A stretch of DNA of 47,334 nt from Calditrichia bacterium (GTDB lineage: Bacteria > Calditrichota > Calditrichia > RBG-13-44-9 > J075), in contig JANQQU010000037.1 in the NCBI GenBank assembly GCA_028284905.1, positions 1 through 47,334 on the forward strand, read 5' to 3'. Made by a program: the position numbers and the translations under genes. Within the stretch, counting starts at the first letter, position 1; each line of letters opens with the position of its first letter. Below, one piece after another: positions 1,661 to 47,123 of this stretch. A model generated the notes under the pieces. That model worked only from the letters and a program-made list of their open reading frames with translations, was not told where the DNA came from and did not search any database.

Positions 1661-2674
1661 CCGGTGACCAACATAACCCGGGAAGAAATTGAACTCGGTA
1701 GCTCAACTAACTCATCCAGTGTTAGTACCAGCAGTAACCTTACCGCAGCCGGTGAAGATGTTTATCTGGCAACAGTTTCTATGAATAAATACCAAATAGT
1801 GTCCAGAGTCGACGGACTTGGTCTAAGCTGGGAATTGGTTAAGGAAATTTGCTCCGGTAGAAGCAATAGTGGCGTTTCGGTTTGGGTAGGGCGTGGCACA
1901 GCCAGTCAGAACGGAAGAGTGACTGCCCGTATGCAAGGCCGTGCAGAGAGTGCTGTTATTTCGGTTGTCCGGTATAGTGGTGTTTATCAGGATTATCCGA
2001 TTGGGGCGCGCATCGCGGTAAATACTAATGGCACAAATGGTAGCTGCCTGAACGGTGGTGCCACCAGTGGTTTTGAGAATACAATTAATACGCCGGTAGA
2101 TAACTGTGTGATCTTTAATGCTGTTGCGGTCCGCCATCGAACATTAATACCGGGAACCGGATATGAGAAAATTGTAGAAACATATCGCGGTTCAGGTGGC
2201 AGCACTGCCGGGCTTGCCATACAGGAGCATTTGGCAGCAAATTCCGGAACAATATCAGTTAATGCGGCTCTGGACAATATGGTCGATTGGGCCCATATTG
2301 CACTGGTGCTTATCCCGGACAACCCGGTTGAAGGCGGAACACTGAGTCGAATTGATATGAATTTGAACACCGATGATAATCTGAGAGTGCTTCCGGAAAC
2401 AATTCAGTTGCAGCAAAATTACCCCAATCCATTCAACGGAGGAACAACCATCCAGTATGCATTACCGGAGCAAATGTCTGTTCAACTGAAAATTTATGAT
2501 ACCGCTGGCAGAGAAATTCTCACCCTGGTTAACGAGTCTCAGGATGCCGGTATTTACAGTTATCGTTGGAATGGGCATGCATATAATGGAACTCCGGTAA
2601 GCTCCGGTTTTTATTTTGTTCGACTAACGGCAGGCGCCCATAGCCATGTTAAGAAGATGATTTACCAAAAATAA
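2..2674 (+). CDS. Surface protein with InlB-type repeats and C-terminal sorting tail (5' end outside window)
   Basis: The reading frame is open from the left edge, so the N-terminus lies outside; 891 codons including the stop are visible. It begins with at least seven full tandem beta-repeats of 74-75 residues, each with a 'GWSGDL.G..NPA.ITMDSDK.V.A.F' pattern, as in the Listeria InlB B-repeat/Flg_new families of secreted and cell-wall proteins. The Trp of each unit recurs every 222 or 225 bp (codons at 2, 224, 446, 671, 896, 1121, 1346, 1571). A non-repeat domain of about 220 residues follows (1663-2330), rich in Ser/Thr/Asn, which I do not recognise. The last ~85 residues ('LQQNYPNPFNGGTTIQYALP', then IYD...G, ending KKMIYQK) are a type IX-like sorting tail. 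Probable role: a long extended cell-surface or secreted adhesin; the ligand is unknown. Confidence 0.9.
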   Translation, partial: GWSGDLNGTSNQASITMDSDKSVTATFTEIIPEYNLTVSVVGGGSVAVDPDLNVYPAGTTVTLTATPQPGYEFSGWSGDLNGTSNQASITMDSDKSVTATFTEIIPEYNLTVSVVGGGSVAVNPDLNVYPAGTTVTLTATPQPGYEFSGWSGDLSSTSHQASITMDSDKSVTATFVEVIPPDYNLTIEIAGNGSVSVNPATGPYTAGTVVTLTATPQDGYKFSSWSGDLSGNENPATITMDSDKTVIATFTPIQAPTYTLTTTVNGAGSIVLDPDGGTYDEGTVVTLTAQPQPGYEFSGWNGDLSGNANPATITMDSDKSVTANFTEVIPPTYNLTVEIVGNGSVSVNPENGPYLAGTTVTLTATPQEGYQFSGWSGDLAGNTNPAALQMDSDKTVSAVFTEIPPTQYELTVQVSGDGDVMLDPEGGMYNAGQEVMMTAMPQAGFEFIGWSGDMSGNTNPEMAYMTSNKSVTATFAPIPPPQYNLTVGVVGGGTVTLDPAGGTYDEGTVVTLTATPDDGYTFLRWAGSLSGTSSPATITMDAHKTVGAIFEAIPVTNITREEIELGSSTNSSSVSTSSNLTAAGEDVYLATVSMNKYQIVSRVDGLGLSWELVKEICSGRSNSGVSVWVGRGTASQNGRVTARMQGRAESAVISVVRYSGVYQDYPIGARIAVNTNGTNGSCLNGGATSGFENTINTPVDNCVIFNAVAVRHRTLIPGTGYEKIVETYRGSGGSTAGLAIQEHLAANSGTISVNAALDNMVDWAHIALVLIPDNPVEGGTLSRIDMNLNTDDNLRVLPETIQLQQNYPNPFNGGTTIQYALPEQMSVQLKIYDTAGREILTLVNESQDAGIYSYRWNGHAYNGTPVSSGFYFVRLTAGAHSHVKKMIYQK

Positions 2675-7817: not shown

Positions 7818-9503
7818 TTAACGAATTAAAATCATTTTTTTCTGTTGGAAATGATCATCGAAAATAAATCGGTAAAAATAAATGCCGCTGCTAACCGGCA
7901 AACCATTATCATCTTTTCCGTTCCAGCGGATTTGATGAGAACCGTTTTGCCGGGTTGCATCAAGGAGGGTGGAAATTCGTTCTCCAAGAATATTGTAAAC
8001 CATCAGTTGAACGTGGGCAGTCTCTTTTAACTCAAACGCGATTGTTGTCGAAGGATTAAACGGATTGGGAAAATTTTGAGAGAGCGATGCTTTCAACGGC
8101 AAGGCAGAATTGTTTTCGGAAGAGATACCAACAGTAATCGTCGTATCAAAAGAAACGAAGCGTATGGCATCGGCAACAATAAAATCTCCGCTGGTGGCAA
8201 GGTTGGATATCTGCACGGCGTCGCTGGTATCTCCACTAAAAGTAAAACTGCCCAGTAAATTCCAGCTACTCCCCTGAGTCGTTTGATCCATCCGCACCGT
8301 ATCGATACCATTCATGTGATGAATAATAAATGGCGTGTCCAGACAGCGGTTCGGGGCTGCGACCCACCAGGCATAAACTTCATACTCGCTCATCTGTGGA
8401 AGATTCGGGCGAAAGTGCGCATAACTATCGCCAGTGCCACGCGGGTTCAGTTGCGCCGGAGTGCCGCCCCAGTAACCGGCATTTGCCGAGGGAAACCAGC
8501 CAGGGCCGATTAAGCTGGCACCACCATCCTCGGTATCAATGATTTCCTGGTAAGTTGGCCGGGGCGGTACCGGAATTGAATCGGAATGGACAACGGCCAG
8601 TATTGACGGGATCGGGCGCTGAAAAAATCCACCTTCCGGCCGGTTGATCAGGCTACTCCCGACAGCCATCTGGCTGGAGCCCCCGCCGTCAAGGTTCATC
8701 GCTTCCACGCAGCCGAGGTTAAACAAAATATCCGCCAGCTCGGTCAGGCTGACGCCTTCGCTCCAGGTATTGTCCCGGCCATCGGCAACAAAAAGGATGA
8801 GATGATTGTTCGCGGTAAACCCTACAGCAGTGCGTGGATCACGATTACTGAGGCCAACACCGGATCCCCAGAAAACCTCTTCAGTATAGCTAATGTTTAT
8901 CGCCCCATTATCAATCAGCGCCGGGCCGCCTCCAATACCAACGGCAAGATCGTTGTACTGTTGTCCGTTAGTAGAATCCGGTAGTGCTGCCGGGGAGCCA
9001 ATCGCATTGGGATTCGGTACGGGGAAGGTATATATTCCGGAAACGCTGCTGTTAAAATGATAGATCCAGTCTACCGACATCTGCTTTTCATAATCAACAC
9101 CAAAAAAGCTGCGGGTGAGCGGATATGTGAGATTATCCCGCACGACAGCGGCAATATTCTGCGCGAGCACTTCTTCCGGATAAACCACGCTGGAAACGGA
9201 TGTAGTCCCGGAAAAATAACCTCCGTTAACAGCGGCAAAAGCACCGGCAGAATGGGTAAATTCGCTAATGCCAAGCGGTGTGCCAAGGTAAGGCCGCACA
9301 GCAAGATCGGCGACATTCATATCTACTTCAAGATACCATGCTTTCAGGATCGGCGATTGGCGCTCTCCCTGAAATAGTTGAACACCCGCAGGGAGCGAAT
9401 GTTGACTGCTGATGTTCGTCCAGGTAATTTCCTGAGAAAAGGCTATTGTTGAGAGTAAAAAGAAAAAGCCAAAAATCGCTAAGATTTGCGTCAGAACTTT
9501 CAA
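7818..9503 (-). CDS. Secreted phosphodiester glycosidase (NAGPA domain) with golvesin-like domain and sorting tail
   Basis: 561 residues. A Sec signal peptide (~1-23, ending IAFS|QE) is followed by a NAGPA/phosphodiester glycosidase domain (~55-310) with 'FAAVNGGYF', 'DPRTAVGF', 'LFVADGR' and 'AMNLDGGGSSQMA', the conserved core of the family that includes mammalian uncovering enzyme and bacterial exopolysaccharide-related members. A beta domain follows (~318-455) resembling the golvesin/xanthan-lyase-type carbohydrate-associated domain (EDGGASLIGPGWFPS, GYWGG, YAHFRPNLP). The end (~478-561) is a sorting tail (LSQNFPNPFNPSTTIAFEL, IYFYRF..., QQKKMILIR). Likely acts outside the cell on glycan phosphodiester or phosphoglycan linkages; the substrate is not known. 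The start is TTG (9501-9503), supported by a ggggggac ribosome site directly upstream. Confidence 0.88.
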   Translation of the reverse strand: MKVLTQILAIFGFFFLLSTIAFSQEITWTNISSQHSLPAGVQLFQGERQSPILKAWYLEVDMNVADLAVRPYLGTPLGISEFTHSAGAFAAVNGGYFSGTTSVSSVVYPEEVLAQNIAAVVRDNLTYPLTRSFFGVDYEKQMSVDWIYHFNSSVSGIYTFPVPNPNAIGSPAALPDSTNGQQYNDLAVGIGGGPALIDNGAINISYTEEVFWGSGVGLSNRDPRTAVGFTANNHLILFVADGRDNTWSEGVSLTELADILFNLGCVEAMNLDGGGSSQMAVGSSLINRPEGGFFQRPIPSILAVVHSDSIPVPPRPTYQEIIDTEDGGASLIGPGWFPSANAGYWGGTPAQLNPRGTGDSYAHFRPNLPQMSEYEVYAWWVAAPNRCLDTPFIIHHMNGIDTVRMDQTTQGSSWNLLGSFTFSGDTSDAVQISNLATSGDFIVADAIRFVSFDTTITVGISSENNSALPLKASLSQNFPNPFNPSTTIAFELKETAHVQLMVYNILGERISTLLDATRQNGSHQIRWNGKDDNGLPVSSGIYFYRFIFDDHFQQKKMILIR

Positions 9504-9697: not shown

Positions 9698-10744
9698 ATG
9701 AGGGATATTCTCGGGGAGATTACCCGCTGGCGGGCGGAAAAAAGATCGTTTGTTTTAGCCCGGGTCACGCAAACCTGGGGATCTGCACCGCGCCGCACCG
9801 GCGCAGCGATGATTATCTCCGACCGTCAGGAAGTGGCTGGTTCGGTCAGCGGGGGATGCATCGAAGGCGCAGTGGTGGATGCCGCCGGCACCGTCCTTGA
9901 GCGAGGAAAACCGGTACATCTCCATTTTGGTGTGACCAACGAAACTGCCTGGTCCGTCGGGTTAACCTGTGGGGGAAAAGTGAGTGTATGGCTTTCCCCA
10001 TATCCGGCGTTATCCGGGGAACGGGACACTCAGAAAATCGGTGAAGCCCTGGAGGAGAATCTGCAGGGAAATCGGCCATGCATTCTCTTAACCCGGCTGG
10101 ATCCGGAAAGCCCGCAGCATTTGCTGGTGTTGCCCGACGGCAGTACAATTGGTGATTGGGGAAATCAGACGGTAGCTGCGGTTCAAATCGCCTTGTCTCA
10201 CTATACACGTCGGCAAAACGGTGAAGCAATACTGGATGAACAGCCGATCTTCGTACACAGTTTTCCCCGCAAACAGCGCCTGTTGATTATTGGCGCAGCG
10301 CATATTTCCATTCCCCTGGTAACGTTTGGGAAGCAATTGGGTTTCGAGGTGATTATTGTTGATCCCCGGCAGATTTTCGGCAACGCTGATCGTTTTCAAA
10401 CGGCGCCGGATGAGATGTATAATCAATGGCCGGATGATATTTTGCCGACCCTTGCGCCGGATGAGGATACCTTTGCAGTACTCTTGACCCATGATCCGAA
10501 AATAGATGACCCGGCTTTACACCTGCTTTTAAAAACGCCGGTCGGCTATATCGGCGCATTGGGGAGTAAAAAGAATCAGGCAAAACGAGTGACTCGTTTA
10601 CAGGAAGCCGGATTTGACATGAATGAGATAAAACGTATTCATGGACCAGTAGGATTGGATATCGGTGCAAAGACCCCGGAGGAAATTGCCCTGAGCATCA
10701 TCTCGCAAATTGTGCAGGTGCGGGAATCGCGGAAAAATCGTTGA
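9698..10744 (+). CDS. xdhC: XdhC-family protein, molybdenum cofactor maturation for xanthine dehydrogenase-type enzymes
   Basis: 348 residues. The N-terminal XdhC/CoxI domain has 'TWGSAPRRTGAAMII' and 'GSVSGGCIEGAVVDAA' (~24-70) and 'VGLTCGG' (~88); the C-terminal Rossmann domain starts 'RLLIIGAAHISIPLV' (~190) and contains 'VVDPR'-type and 'YIGALGSKKN' motifs. XdhC proteins bind molybdenum cofactor, take part in its sulfuration and deliver it to hydroxylases of the xanthine dehydrogenase family. The ATG at 9698 is preferred to the in-frame TTG at 9593 because a strong gaggag site lies 7-12 nt before it. The next gene is its probable client. The stop codon (10742-10744) lies within the left arm of an 84-bp palindrome. 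Confidence 0.9.
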   Translation: MRDILGEITRWRAEKRSFVLARVTQTWGSAPRRTGAAMIISDRQEVAGSVSGGCIEGAVVDAAGTVLERGKPVHLHFGVTNETAWSVGLTCGGKVSVWLSPYPALSGERDTQKIGEALEENLQGNRPCILLTRLDPESPQHLLVLPDGSTIGDWGNQTVAAVQIALSHYTRRQNGEAILDEQPIFVHSFPRKQRLLIIGAAHISIPLVTFGKQLGFEVIIVDPRQIFGNADRFQTAPDEMYNQWPDDILPTLAPDEDTFAVLLTHDPKIDDPALHLLLKTPVGYIGALGSKKNQAKRVTRLQEAGFDMNEIKRIHGPVGLDIGAKTPEEIALSIISQIVQVRESRKNR

Positions 10745-10823
10745 TCGTTGATCGTTGATTGGTGGTTGTAGAGAAAATTCATGAATTTTCTCTACAACCA
10801 CCAATCAACGATCAACGATCAAC
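10740..10823. repeat. Perfect 84-bp palindrome (hairpin element 2)
   Basis: Positions 10740-10781 are the exact reverse complement of 10782-10823. The centre has the same 30-bp core as the 7752-7815 palindrome (here 10767-10796), but the arms are made of 7-bp units gttgatc, gttgatc, gttgatt. The outer end includes the xdhC stop codon. It lies between xdhC and the molybdenum hydroxylase, 110 bp before the latter's start, so it could attenuate or process the shared transcript. Confidence 0.95.
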
Positions 10824-15679: not shown

Positions 15680-16003
15680 TGGCACCTCGTTGATCGTTGA
15701 TCGTTGTTAGTTGTTCGTTATTCGTTGATTGTTTTCGGTTATTCTTAAAATTCCGTTCCGCCGTTTTAATCGCCGAGAAAATTTATGCTTTTTTATACGA
15801 TTAAAACATTCGCCGTCAAAAATCCGATTTACGAACAACGAACAACGAATAACGGTCTTTCAGCATTTAAGGTTTGTTTTCCGCAAAACATGGAATTAAT
15901 ATTTTGCTTCTGTATTTGTCAACTGTATTCTTTGAACTTTCTGAATAATCCGGCGTTCGATCGGCAGTAAGCTAACGAAACCGGTAAATGGGATGTGCTG
16001 ATT
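15680..16003. other. Divergent intergenic region 15680-16003
   Basis: 324 bp between divergent genes, so promoters for both must lie here or upstream of the hairpin. About half is the heptamer hairpin (15688-15854). The remaining ~150 bp is AT-rich with no recognised operator. Confidence 0.5.
15688..15854. repeat. Imperfect long hairpin of cgttgat/cgaacaa heptamers (hairpin element 5)
   Basis: The left side contains tandem 7-mers cgttgat, cgttgat, cgttgtt, agttgtt, cgttatt, cgttgat (15688 onward); the right side contains acgaaca, acgaaca, acgaata (15831-15854). An inner stem is cgttttaatcg (15762-15772) with cgattaaaac (15798-15807). The loop begins gagaaaatttatg, resembling half of the core shared by the palindromes at 7752 and 10740. 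It directly precedes the ribosome site of the metallophosphoesterase gene. Confidence 0.8.
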
Positions 16004-17240: not shown

Positions 17241-17313
17241 GTTGACAGTTATCAGTGATCAGTAATCAGTTAACAGTTATCAGTAACCAGTGACTAGTAA
17301 TTAGCAACCAGTG
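17241..17313. repeat. Tandem cagttat-type heptamer array (element 6)
   Basis: Consecutive degenerate 7-mers run cagttat, cagtgat, cagtaat, cagttaa, cagttat, cagtaac, cagtgac, then taattag and caaccagtg. Unlike most other elements here no inverted second arm is seen. It begins about 31 bp after the histidine kinase stop and ends about 60 bp before the permease start. Confidence 0.9.
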
Positions 17314-21454: not shown

Positions 21455-21486
21455 AATTCGGAATTCCGAATTCGGAATTCCGAATT
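21455..21486. repeat. Perfect 32-bp palindrome of aattcgg/aattccg heptamers (hairpin element 7)
   Basis: Four 7-bp units alternate (aattcgg, aattccg, aattcgg, aattccg, then aatt) and the whole 32 bp is its own reverse complement. GAATTC occurs three times at exact 7-bp spacing (21461, 21468, 21475). Flanking ctttaa and ttaaag add a bulged outer stem. It lies 7 bp after the metG stop. Confidence 0.95.
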
Positions 21487-32517: not shown

Positions 32518-33840
32518 TTAGCGTGTTAATAACATTTTCTGTGTAATTGCATATCCTGCCGATTCGATCCGATAAAAATAAACGCCACTGCCAACCTGTT
32601 GTCCCAATTGATTTGTGCCATCCCACTGTTCAGTGTAATTTCCAGGTAAGCGATTTTCACTCACCAGTGTTTTTACCCGTTTGCCGGAAACATCATAAAT
32701 ATCCAGAGTAACAAACCCGAAATCCGAAATTCGAAATCCGATATTGGTCGCGGGGTTAAACGGATTCGGATAATTCTGTGCCAGGGTAATCTGCGTCGGC
32801 AGGCGTTGTTCATCCAGGTCGGAAATTGACGTCGGCTGGGAAAGGTTGTTCAGGGACCATAAATCGTTCAGATAGTTTCCTGCTCTACCACCAAAGACAA
32901 CCATGCGATTTTCCCCGGGCACATAAATGCCGCTGGCGCCCGCACGATTTGGGGGCAAAGATCCAGCAGGTGTCAATTCTTCCCAAAGATTCTCGTTAAG
33001 ATCAAATGCCCAAAGATCATTGGACGTGGAAGCGCCAACTGCATTTCCACTGAAAACTAATACGCGATGATTGCCGGCATCGTAGGCTGCGACAGTAAAA
33101 TAACGCCCCGGAGGTGTGCTGGCTGGAGTGAGATCCGTCCAGGTTTGCTGGGCTAAATCAAACACCCAGATGTCGCTGAGGCGCCCGGCATTATTGATTC
33201 CACCATACATGATCATGCGATGATGCAACGTATCGTAAACAGCGGTATGCAGACACCGTTCACCGGGACTCCCCTGGGAAGGGGTAATTTCGTTCCATTG
33301 CGGATTATTAATGTCAAATGCCCAGGTGTCCTGAAAGCGCCCCTGGTCGGTAAAACCGCCGAAGGTGACCAGGTGACCGGCGGCCGGGTCCAGAACCGAT
33401 ACAGCACCGTAGCGGATTTCCGGCAACGTTCCATCAGGATTGTAGGCGGTCCATTCATTGCCGCTGAAGTCAAATCGCCAGGTATCATTATAAAAAGCTG
33501 TTCCCAAACCGGACCACATAACAATTTGATGATTCGCAGCATCATAGACCATATTCGGGGTGCGACGGGGCGCGGGAGACATACCAATTACAGGGGTGAG
33601 GTTCTCCCAGCTGTTACTGACGAAATCAAATGCCCAGATGTCATTGACCCGGCCGGCGCTGGTTTCGCCACCAAAAACAATCATGCGATGTCCCTGGGCA
33701 TCATATACAGCATCCGCGTTTCTCCGCCCGGGGGGAATCTCTCCTGCTGAAGGTGTAATTTCCGACCAGTCCTGCGACTGAAGATTCGGGGGAAATAAAA
33801 ACAGTGCTAATAGTAAAAAAATAGTGTGCAATCTTTTCAT
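32518..33840 (-). CDS. Secreted kelch-repeat beta-propeller protein with sorting tail
   Basis: 440 residues. Signal peptide ~1-22 (LLALFLFPPNLQSQ). About six kelch units (~30-345) with the pattern 'R..A..VYD...HRMIVFGG....R.ND.WAFD...W..LTP', forming a beta-propeller. A sorting tail follows (~355-440; 'LAQNYPNPFNPATNIGF', 'VTLDIYDVSGKRVKTL', 'GSGVYFYRI', KMLLTR). Likely secreted to the cell surface as a binding protein; partner unknown. Within the tail, codons at 32713-32740 form a 7-bp tandem repeat (aaacccg, aaatccg, aaattcg, aaatccg on the plus strand) that encodes RISDFGF-like residues in place of the usual turn. ATG start with only a weak ggat site. Confidence 0.9.
   Translation of the reverse strand: MKRLHTIFLLLALFLFPPNLQSQDWSEITPSAGEIPPGRRNADAVYDAQGHRMIVFGGETSAGRVNDIWAFDFVSNSWENLTPVIGMSPAPRRTPNMVYDAANHQIVMWSGLGTAFYNDTWRFDFSGNEWTAYNPDGTLPEIRYGAVSVLDPAAGHLVTFGGFTDQGRFQDTWAFDINNPQWNEITPSQGSPGERCLHTAVYDTLHHRMIMYGGINNAGRLSDIWVFDLAQQTWTDLTPASTPPGRYFTVAAYDAGNHRVLVFSGNAVGASTSNDLWAFDLNENLWEELTPAGSLPPNRAGASGIYVPGENRMVVFGGRAGNYLNDLWSLNNLSQPTSISDLDEQRLPTQITLAQNYPNPFNPATNIGFRISDFGFVTLDIYDVSGKRVKTLVSENRLPGNYTEQWDGTNQLGQQVGSGVYFYRIESAGYAITQKMLLTR
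32713..32740. repeat. In-frame heptamer array within the kelch gene's sorting tail
   Basis: Four 7-bp units aaacccg, aaatccg, aaattcg, aaatccg lie inside coding sequence. The unit is close to the aattcgg/aattccg units of the palindrome at 21455-21486. Three heptamers equal seven codons, so an array can stay in frame. Confidence 0.85.
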
Positions 33841-47054: not shown

Positions 47055-47123
47055 GAATTCGGAATTTGGAATGCGGAGTTTAGAATGTCTTTTATTTAGT
47101 CATTCCGCATTCGCCATTCGCCA
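47055..47123. repeat. Inverted array of ggaatgc/cattcgc heptamers (hairpin element 13)
   Basis: Left units cggaatt, tggaatg, cggagtt, tagaatg (from 47055) and right units cattccg, cattcgc, cattcgc, ca (47101-47123); the inner perfect stem is gaatgcgga (47069-47077) / tccgcattc (47104-47112). It lies 12 bp upstream of the kinase start codon and ends where the transposase-like frame begins to look coding. Confidence 0.88.

Follow-up and report, generated by a model that had tools for sequence, protein, structure and literature searches.

A tandem array of 7-bp units occupies a fixed position in the coding sequence of the first β-hairpin of T9SS type A sorting tails of a Calditrichia bacterium. 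It recurs among the tails at constant length and is a property of the DNA, relatives carry a second class of unit at the same site, and modules are common to the tails and to kinase genes. The best explanation, to which we give a probability of about 0.55, is that dispersed heptamer-repeat DNA has been recruited into the coding sequence of the sorting-tail hairpin. The window, i.e. the whole stretch of DNA that was analysed, comprises 47,334 nucleotides and is one contig (C43) of the 93 that make up the 8.55-Mb genome.

The Array in the Kelch Sorting Tail

The array lies at 32713..32740 on the minus strand, within the gene for a kelch β-propeller protein of 440 residues (32518..33840, minus strand; ORF and domain search). 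The sorting tail of this protein runs from PNPFN to the stop codon (32518..32769, minus strand) and matches TIGR04183 with 41.1 bits, above the curated cut-off of 23, and PF18962 with 28.3 bits (cut-off 27). The sequence-only reading had described four heptamers here, and they are found exactly so: aaacccg (32713–32719), aaatccg (32720–32726), aaattcg (32727–32733) and aaatccg (32734–32740), in agreement with TRF, which run on the window returned a repeat of period 7 at 32713–32741 with 4.1 copies and a score of 44. The coding strand reads CGGATTT CGAATTT CGGATTT CGGGTTT, in frame (AT)C GGA TTT CGA ATT TCG GAT TTC GGG TTT, and encodes GFRISDFGF.

The 100-residue tail was modelled with AlphaFold2 (50 sequences), giving a mean pLDDT of 84, six strands of at least three residues and, with locally high confidence, strands at tail residues 25–31 and 35–42. 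The predicted first β-hairpin (strand 1, turn and strand 2; TNIGFRISDFGFVTLDIY) corresponds to 32695..32748 on the minus strand, and in the model the part encoded by the array begins midway through strand 1, takes in the turn and ends early in strand 2. The best PDB match returned by Foldseek was a moderate one to PorU (6za2; E 6.3e-4, TM-score 0.63 by query length), with further matches to FlgD and to T9SS complex chains; judged by the model and these matches, the tail is predicted to be a C-terminal Ig-like β-sandwich. The domain that hosts the array is the T9SS type A sorting domain (TIGR04183, PF18962). In the sorting-tail structure of RgpB, motif A consists of strands 1 and 2 (PMC4804311), and by the model it is this motif that the heptamer array covers.

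The lag-7 identity of the window array is 18/21. When synonymous codons were drawn from the genome usage (20,000 draws), this tail taken singly gave P 0.007, a modest value; it is the other tails in the genome that make the case decisive. The tail has the standard 18 residues and no net insertion. Full-length kelch orthologues with 49–52% identity are present at G005:C70 and G006:C587, and three DNA patterns aimed at the tails of these two orthologues matched no tail DNA.

Recurrence among the Sorting Tails of the Genome

Two further sorting tails of the window have the same hairpin without an array, namely that of the surface protein at the left edge (2420..2674, plus strand; IQYALPEQMSVQLKIYD; ORF list and TIGR04183) and that of a phosphodiester-glycosidase protein (7818..8070, limits approximate, minus strand; IAFELKETAHVQLMVYN; ORF and profile matches). 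A TIGR04183 profile search of the genome gave 150 scored matches among 357 candidates, and the pattern NPFN...[YF][DN] gave 296 matches, with 7 in a reversed control; some 300 NPFN sorting tails in the 8.55 Mb of this genome (G000) amount to a very large predicted set of T9SS substrates.

The regions surrounding tails and arrays, 2.6 Mb in all, were examined, and 226 PNPFN tails were read there together with their context. Absence of 7-bp periodicity from other tails had been named beforehand as grounds for rejecting the sequence-only reading; at the same hairpin site, 16 of the 226 tails (7%, or about one in fourteen) have a lag-7 identity of at least 15/21, with 21/21 at C26:147 (P 0.00005) and 19/21 at both C67:38886 (P 0.00015) and C7:214847 (P 0.002). 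The distance from PNPFN to the IYD position is exactly 18 residues in 209/226 tails, the kelch tail included, which bears out the earlier statement that the array segment has the same length as its counterpart in other tails. Longer tails with arrays are three on C20 that have five extra residues (PPGGR). The earlier reading went further and held that the repeat replaced the strand-turn rather than lengthening it; the constant length agrees with this, and the replacement event is deduced from that length rather than seen.

These tails could descend from one founder that gained, or drifted into, a CGGATTT array and was spread by gene or tail duplication, so that the present arrays would be decaying copies with no exchange between them. 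We consider this unlikely, and it is the most probable of the rivals. Array tails resemble each other as a family, many of them having the flank YDISGRLVKTLVNENR in common, and they are clustered on a tree of 206 tails calculated from 68 columns with the array columns left out, a tree of low resolution on which the array label needs 11 changes, as against a mean of 14.6 when shuffled, with 0/500 shuffles as low. At least three of those 11 changes are forced by supported branches. An AU test in which the 15 array tails were held as one clade gave p 0.20, so that one clade is not rejected; we dropped the claim of many origins inside the window's genome, where a single capture may have been followed by tail duplication. 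The tandem paralogues at C69:92740 and C69:90783, with and without a clear array, are also what decay predicts. Plain decay fails, however, on the synonymous codons: among 23 tails picked by protein motif only, codon identity within the array is 0.68 (0.41 expected), far above that of the flanks after the array, which at 0.37–0.47 (0.28–0.41 expected) is close to background. In addition, some array tails have different flanks (C26:147, C12:223811), and the sister genera spell the same site with a different unit, which overall calls for two origins or more.

The Periodicity as a Property of the DNA

The 23 tails picked by protein motif were tested for lag-7 periodicity, which bears on an explanation by protein convergence, in which selection acts on the residues GFRISDFGF and these, together with codon bias, would produce the 7-bp periodicity as a side effect. 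The hairpin protein pattern alone does give a lag-7 baseline of about 9–11 of 21, and the window tail taken singly departs from the codon null no more strongly than stated above. The 23 tails, however, have a lag-7 sum of 335, whereas 2000 synonymous shuffles averaged 232 and never exceeded 264, and the controls were clean: the downstream control segment of the same tails gave a sum of 188 with 185 expected (P 0.33), and for the remaining 179 ungapped tails the sum was 1553 with 1547 expected (P 0.38), with no excess in either. By this last result, repeat writing is not a general route of sorting-tail diversification.

The codons tell against convergence as well, since for one and the same amino acid codon choice is biased within the array, whereas just beyond it the codons are evenly used. 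In the 23 tails the two array glycines are GGA in 27/31 cases (background 18%), and the glycine just downstream of the array is GGT, GGA, GGC or GGG in 5, 6, 6 and 6 cases; the array serine is TCG in 9/15 (background 9%). Adjacent units also tend to have variants in common at the same phase (18 same and 10 different, counts that are not independent), and such neighbour-unit variants, e.g. CGGATGT CGGATGT and CGGATGG CGGATGG, alter different residues. The excess over synonymous shuffles, the null controls and the difference between array and downstream glycine codons together establish that the 7-bp periodicity belongs to the DNA and is limited to a discrete subset of tails. Convergence of the protein is thereby largely refuted and is very improbable as the source of the arrays.

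Dispersed Arrays in Intergenic DNA, Kinases and an NRPS

Arrays with a lag-7 identity of at least 17/21 number 159 in the 2.6 Mb, of which 90 are intergenic, 36 lie at ORF edges and 33 lie within coding sequences; tandem 7-bp units at so many loci form a dispersed heptanucleotide repeat family. The 33 arrays within coding sequences are divided among histidine kinases (21), tails (9) and all other ORFs (3), and in-frame heptamer repeats are thus found in unrelated genes, i.e. in tails, in histidine kinases and in one NRPS adenylation domain. In the last of these (L181, C67:67765-72386) a CGGAATT array codes for NPNSEFRIPNSPKGQ near the start of the domain.

The window itself has a palindromic intergenic array of the unit CGGAATT at 21455..21486 (no strand assigned; TRF; AATTCGGAATTCCG), which has a 24-bp block in common with C22:50381. 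Its unit is one base apart from the tail unit CGGATTT, and the near equality of the two that was remarked upon earlier is therefore correct. CGGATTT is the majority unit of seven tail arrays and four kinase arrays (2.6 Mb, at least 17/21) and of none of the intergenic arrays in the 2.6 Mb, where tail and intergenic arrays with an identical unit were accordingly not found. Of the proposal that the same heptamer process extends into a gene for an exported protein, the association stands, in the form of 16/226 tails, DNA-level periodicity and shared modules; full identity of the tail unit with the intergenic unit does not, CGGATTT being the majority unit of no intergenic array in the 2.6 Mb. At a threshold of 19/21 the CGGATTT arrays had appeared to be confined to tails, a notion that was dropped when the threshold of 17/21 added the four kinase arrays. 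Further arrays of the window lie at 10737-10764 with 10800-10823, at 15687-15744, at 17246-17312 and at 47055-47087; with that at 21455-21486 they represent several families (ATCGTTG, CAGTTAT, CGGAATT), mostly intergenic and some as inverted pairs, so that at least three families occur in one window.

Within the kinases, the arrays are located either in a HATPase_c loop or in the linker that leads to the receiver domain. Several reading frames and both orientations are represented, and arrays are present in 8/15 long loops and 0/5 short ones. The kinases that carry them are hybrid, AraC-type two-component histidine kinases in which the HATPase_c loop or the HATPase-receiver linker is lengthened; in L141 (C39:131011-132912), L091 (C12:232011-236216) and other kinases the in-frame peptides are NSEFRIPNSEF, NAELGMRNAEL and DSYQLSVNSYQL. 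A kinase HATPase_c loop contains, on the opposite strand, an exact 27-bp match to the window array, both variant units included. This match favours the copying of blocks, without proving it, and is weaker than it looks because imperfect blocks of at least 24 bp are common to many arrays.

A 22-bp compound module, made up of CGGA(A/T)T, a palindrome of the type CCCC(nnn)GGGG and CAGGT, is present in nine copies, three of them in the C20 tails, which are neighbours and read it as PPGGR (L113; C20:102711, 106127 and 109440), and six in kinase genes (C1:44705; C9:36465, 36487 and 36847; C66:63422 and 63444). The two sides of its palindromic core change together (CCCCGAAGGGG, CCCCCTGGGGG, CCTCCTGGAGG), and twice it occurs in tandem.

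A Second Heptamer at the Same Site in Relatives

We searched 40 genomes of the phylum with a protein-level pattern (NPFN, then T.I[SN][FY]QLS and V), the relatives being covered through their pattern matches. This yielded 43 tails of a second class (I[SN][FY]QLS), mostly spelled in AGCTATC or AGCTTTC heptamers (AGCTATC giving ISYQLSAIS), most of which score 16–19/21 where null means are around 10. G039 has 12 of these tails, G006 has 11 and G005 has 5, and the same protein pattern found none in the window's genome. Of tails of the first class (GFRISDFGF type, strict pattern), the window's genome has seven, and G001, G005 and G006 have one apiece.

The dispersed arrays differ between the genomes in a similar manner. 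There are 78 hits of CGGAATT arrays in the window's genome and at most one in every other genome of the 40-genome set, and hits of AGCTWTC arrays number 20 in G006, 16 in G005, 15 in G037 and seven each in G034 and G039, with none in the window's genome. Among the AGCTWTC/AGCTATC hits of G005 and G006 beyond the matched tails, some fall within tails too, and the association of tail unit and dispersed unit across genomes is therefore not an independent one. The second class is also partly seeded by the protein, ISYQL or ISYQLP being naturally close to a double AGCTATC heptamer. The serine codon that follows the leucine in these tails is TCA in 20/43, compared with about 9% in the tail proteins of the window's genome, a bias that exceeds the seed given by the protein.

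A survey of 80 named loci included several tails from other phyla at 14–16/21, raw scores without codon nulls that serve as leads only. A Neomarinimicrobiota protein has an in-frame array of AATTATC heptamers (L275:1814-1851; YNDQLSIINDQLIPG), which suggests in-frame heptamers in further phyla. Three loci (L205, L220 and L242) of a record (WYBG01) named Deltaproteobacteria bacterium PRO9 have tails identical to those of G006, which belongs to the same family as the window's genome; the name of the record looks wrong.

The occurrence of the arrays in relatives and in kinases bears on the possibility that the heptamers function as DNA or RNA, as binding sites or as translation-pausing elements placed early in the coding region of the tail. 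Their fixed position in tails would fit such a role, but they are present in only about 7% of tails, the kinase arrays lie in several frames and both orientations and the relatives use different units at the same site, all of which makes this explanation very improbable. Least probable is local slippage, in which an array would have grown in place, by 7-bp duplications and compensating deletions, from a two-unit seed such as natural tails have (e.g. ATCAGCTATCAGCT): the variants that adjacent units have in common agree with it, but a 7-bp step shifts the frame, so that the near-invariant lengths (209/226) would call for three-unit steps and exact compensation, and the compound modules common to tails and kinase genes would go unexplained.

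Discussion

Under the favoured explanation, the recruitment of dispersed heptamer-repeat DNA into the tail hairpin, short array blocks would be copied between sites by templated repair or by template switching at microhomology. Partial matches, e.g. ATCnGnTTTC or ATCAGCTAYCAGCT, are already present in the DNA of the ordinary tail hairpin, which codes for I-x-[FY]-x-[LI], and (CGGATTT)4 in its one observed frame reads G-F-R-I-S-D-F-G-F, an alternating hydrophobic strand 1 with a turn of the right length. Because this frame keeps both the strand-1 pattern and the length of the turn, a four-unit block could replace an older hairpin at unchanged length; elsewhere in coding sequences the arrays persist by adding residues to kinase loops and linkers. 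We infer copying as the mechanism, its direction, the replacement event and its harmlessness to secretion, and any benefit that tail arrays may have would stand on the same footing. A more far-reaching view is that the heptamer arrays are a continuing sequence-writing system, in which blocks are copied among intergenic arrays, kinase loops and tail hairpins and each lineage has its own heptamer; this we regard as distinctly doubtful.

Heptamer arrays are frequent in bacterial intergenic DNA and little understood. Those described here are like the dispersed TAACTGA heptanucleotide repeats of Beggiatoaceae and cyanobacteria (PMC4679880) and the tandem GGGACCG heptamers of Geobacter metallireducens (PMC2700814) in being multicopy tandem repeats of a 7-bp unit that lie for the most part between genes, with some in ORFs. 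Indeed (CAGTTAT)n, which belongs to the TAACTGA family and reads LSVISYQ, is close to the class-2 tails. In Beggiatoaceae the copies in ORFs are mostly peripheral within proteins that are unrelated or hypothetical, whereas the tail arrays occupy a fixed hairpin in a sorting domain that is conserved; they are in frame, leave the length constant and recur in many paralogues.

In-frame repeat DNA within unrelated genes, at presumed fold-compatible sites, also recalls the Rickettsia palindromic elements, which insert some 150 bp into protein-coding genes (Ogata et al. 2000, 2002, reviewed in PMC10969869). A net insertion of that kind is absent from the window tail, which has a 28-bp array in the standard 18 residues, and unlike the Rickettsia elements the heptamers lengthen the protein only in kinase loops and in the three C20 tails. 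What sets the tails apart from both the Rickettsia and the TAACTGA cases is that there is no net insertion, that the array keeps to one structural position and that its unit depends on the lineage. In another dispersed DNA repeat with an amphipathic translation, found in membrane-targeted proteins, units of 25 residues make up whole domains, whereas here a 7-bp unit makes up one hairpin. A search of one literature library found no report of DNA tandem repeats coding for part of the T9SS type A sorting domain, and a search for the peptides NSEFRI, LSVISYQ and ISDFGF found nothing beyond the TAACTGA paper (PMC4679880).

Short repeat DNA seems here to have been recruited into a working protein. 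In many paralogues the heptamers make up, in frame and at constant length, a portion of a secretion signal that is both structured and conserved, and the unit differs by sister lineage. With hundreds of tails per genome, the sorting tails offer a countable system in which to follow how repeat DNA enters proteins, whether arrays move by being copied and which folds tolerate them. If the arrays are a writing system, the copying of repeats would be a source of variation for sensor kinases and for the surface of a secretion signal.
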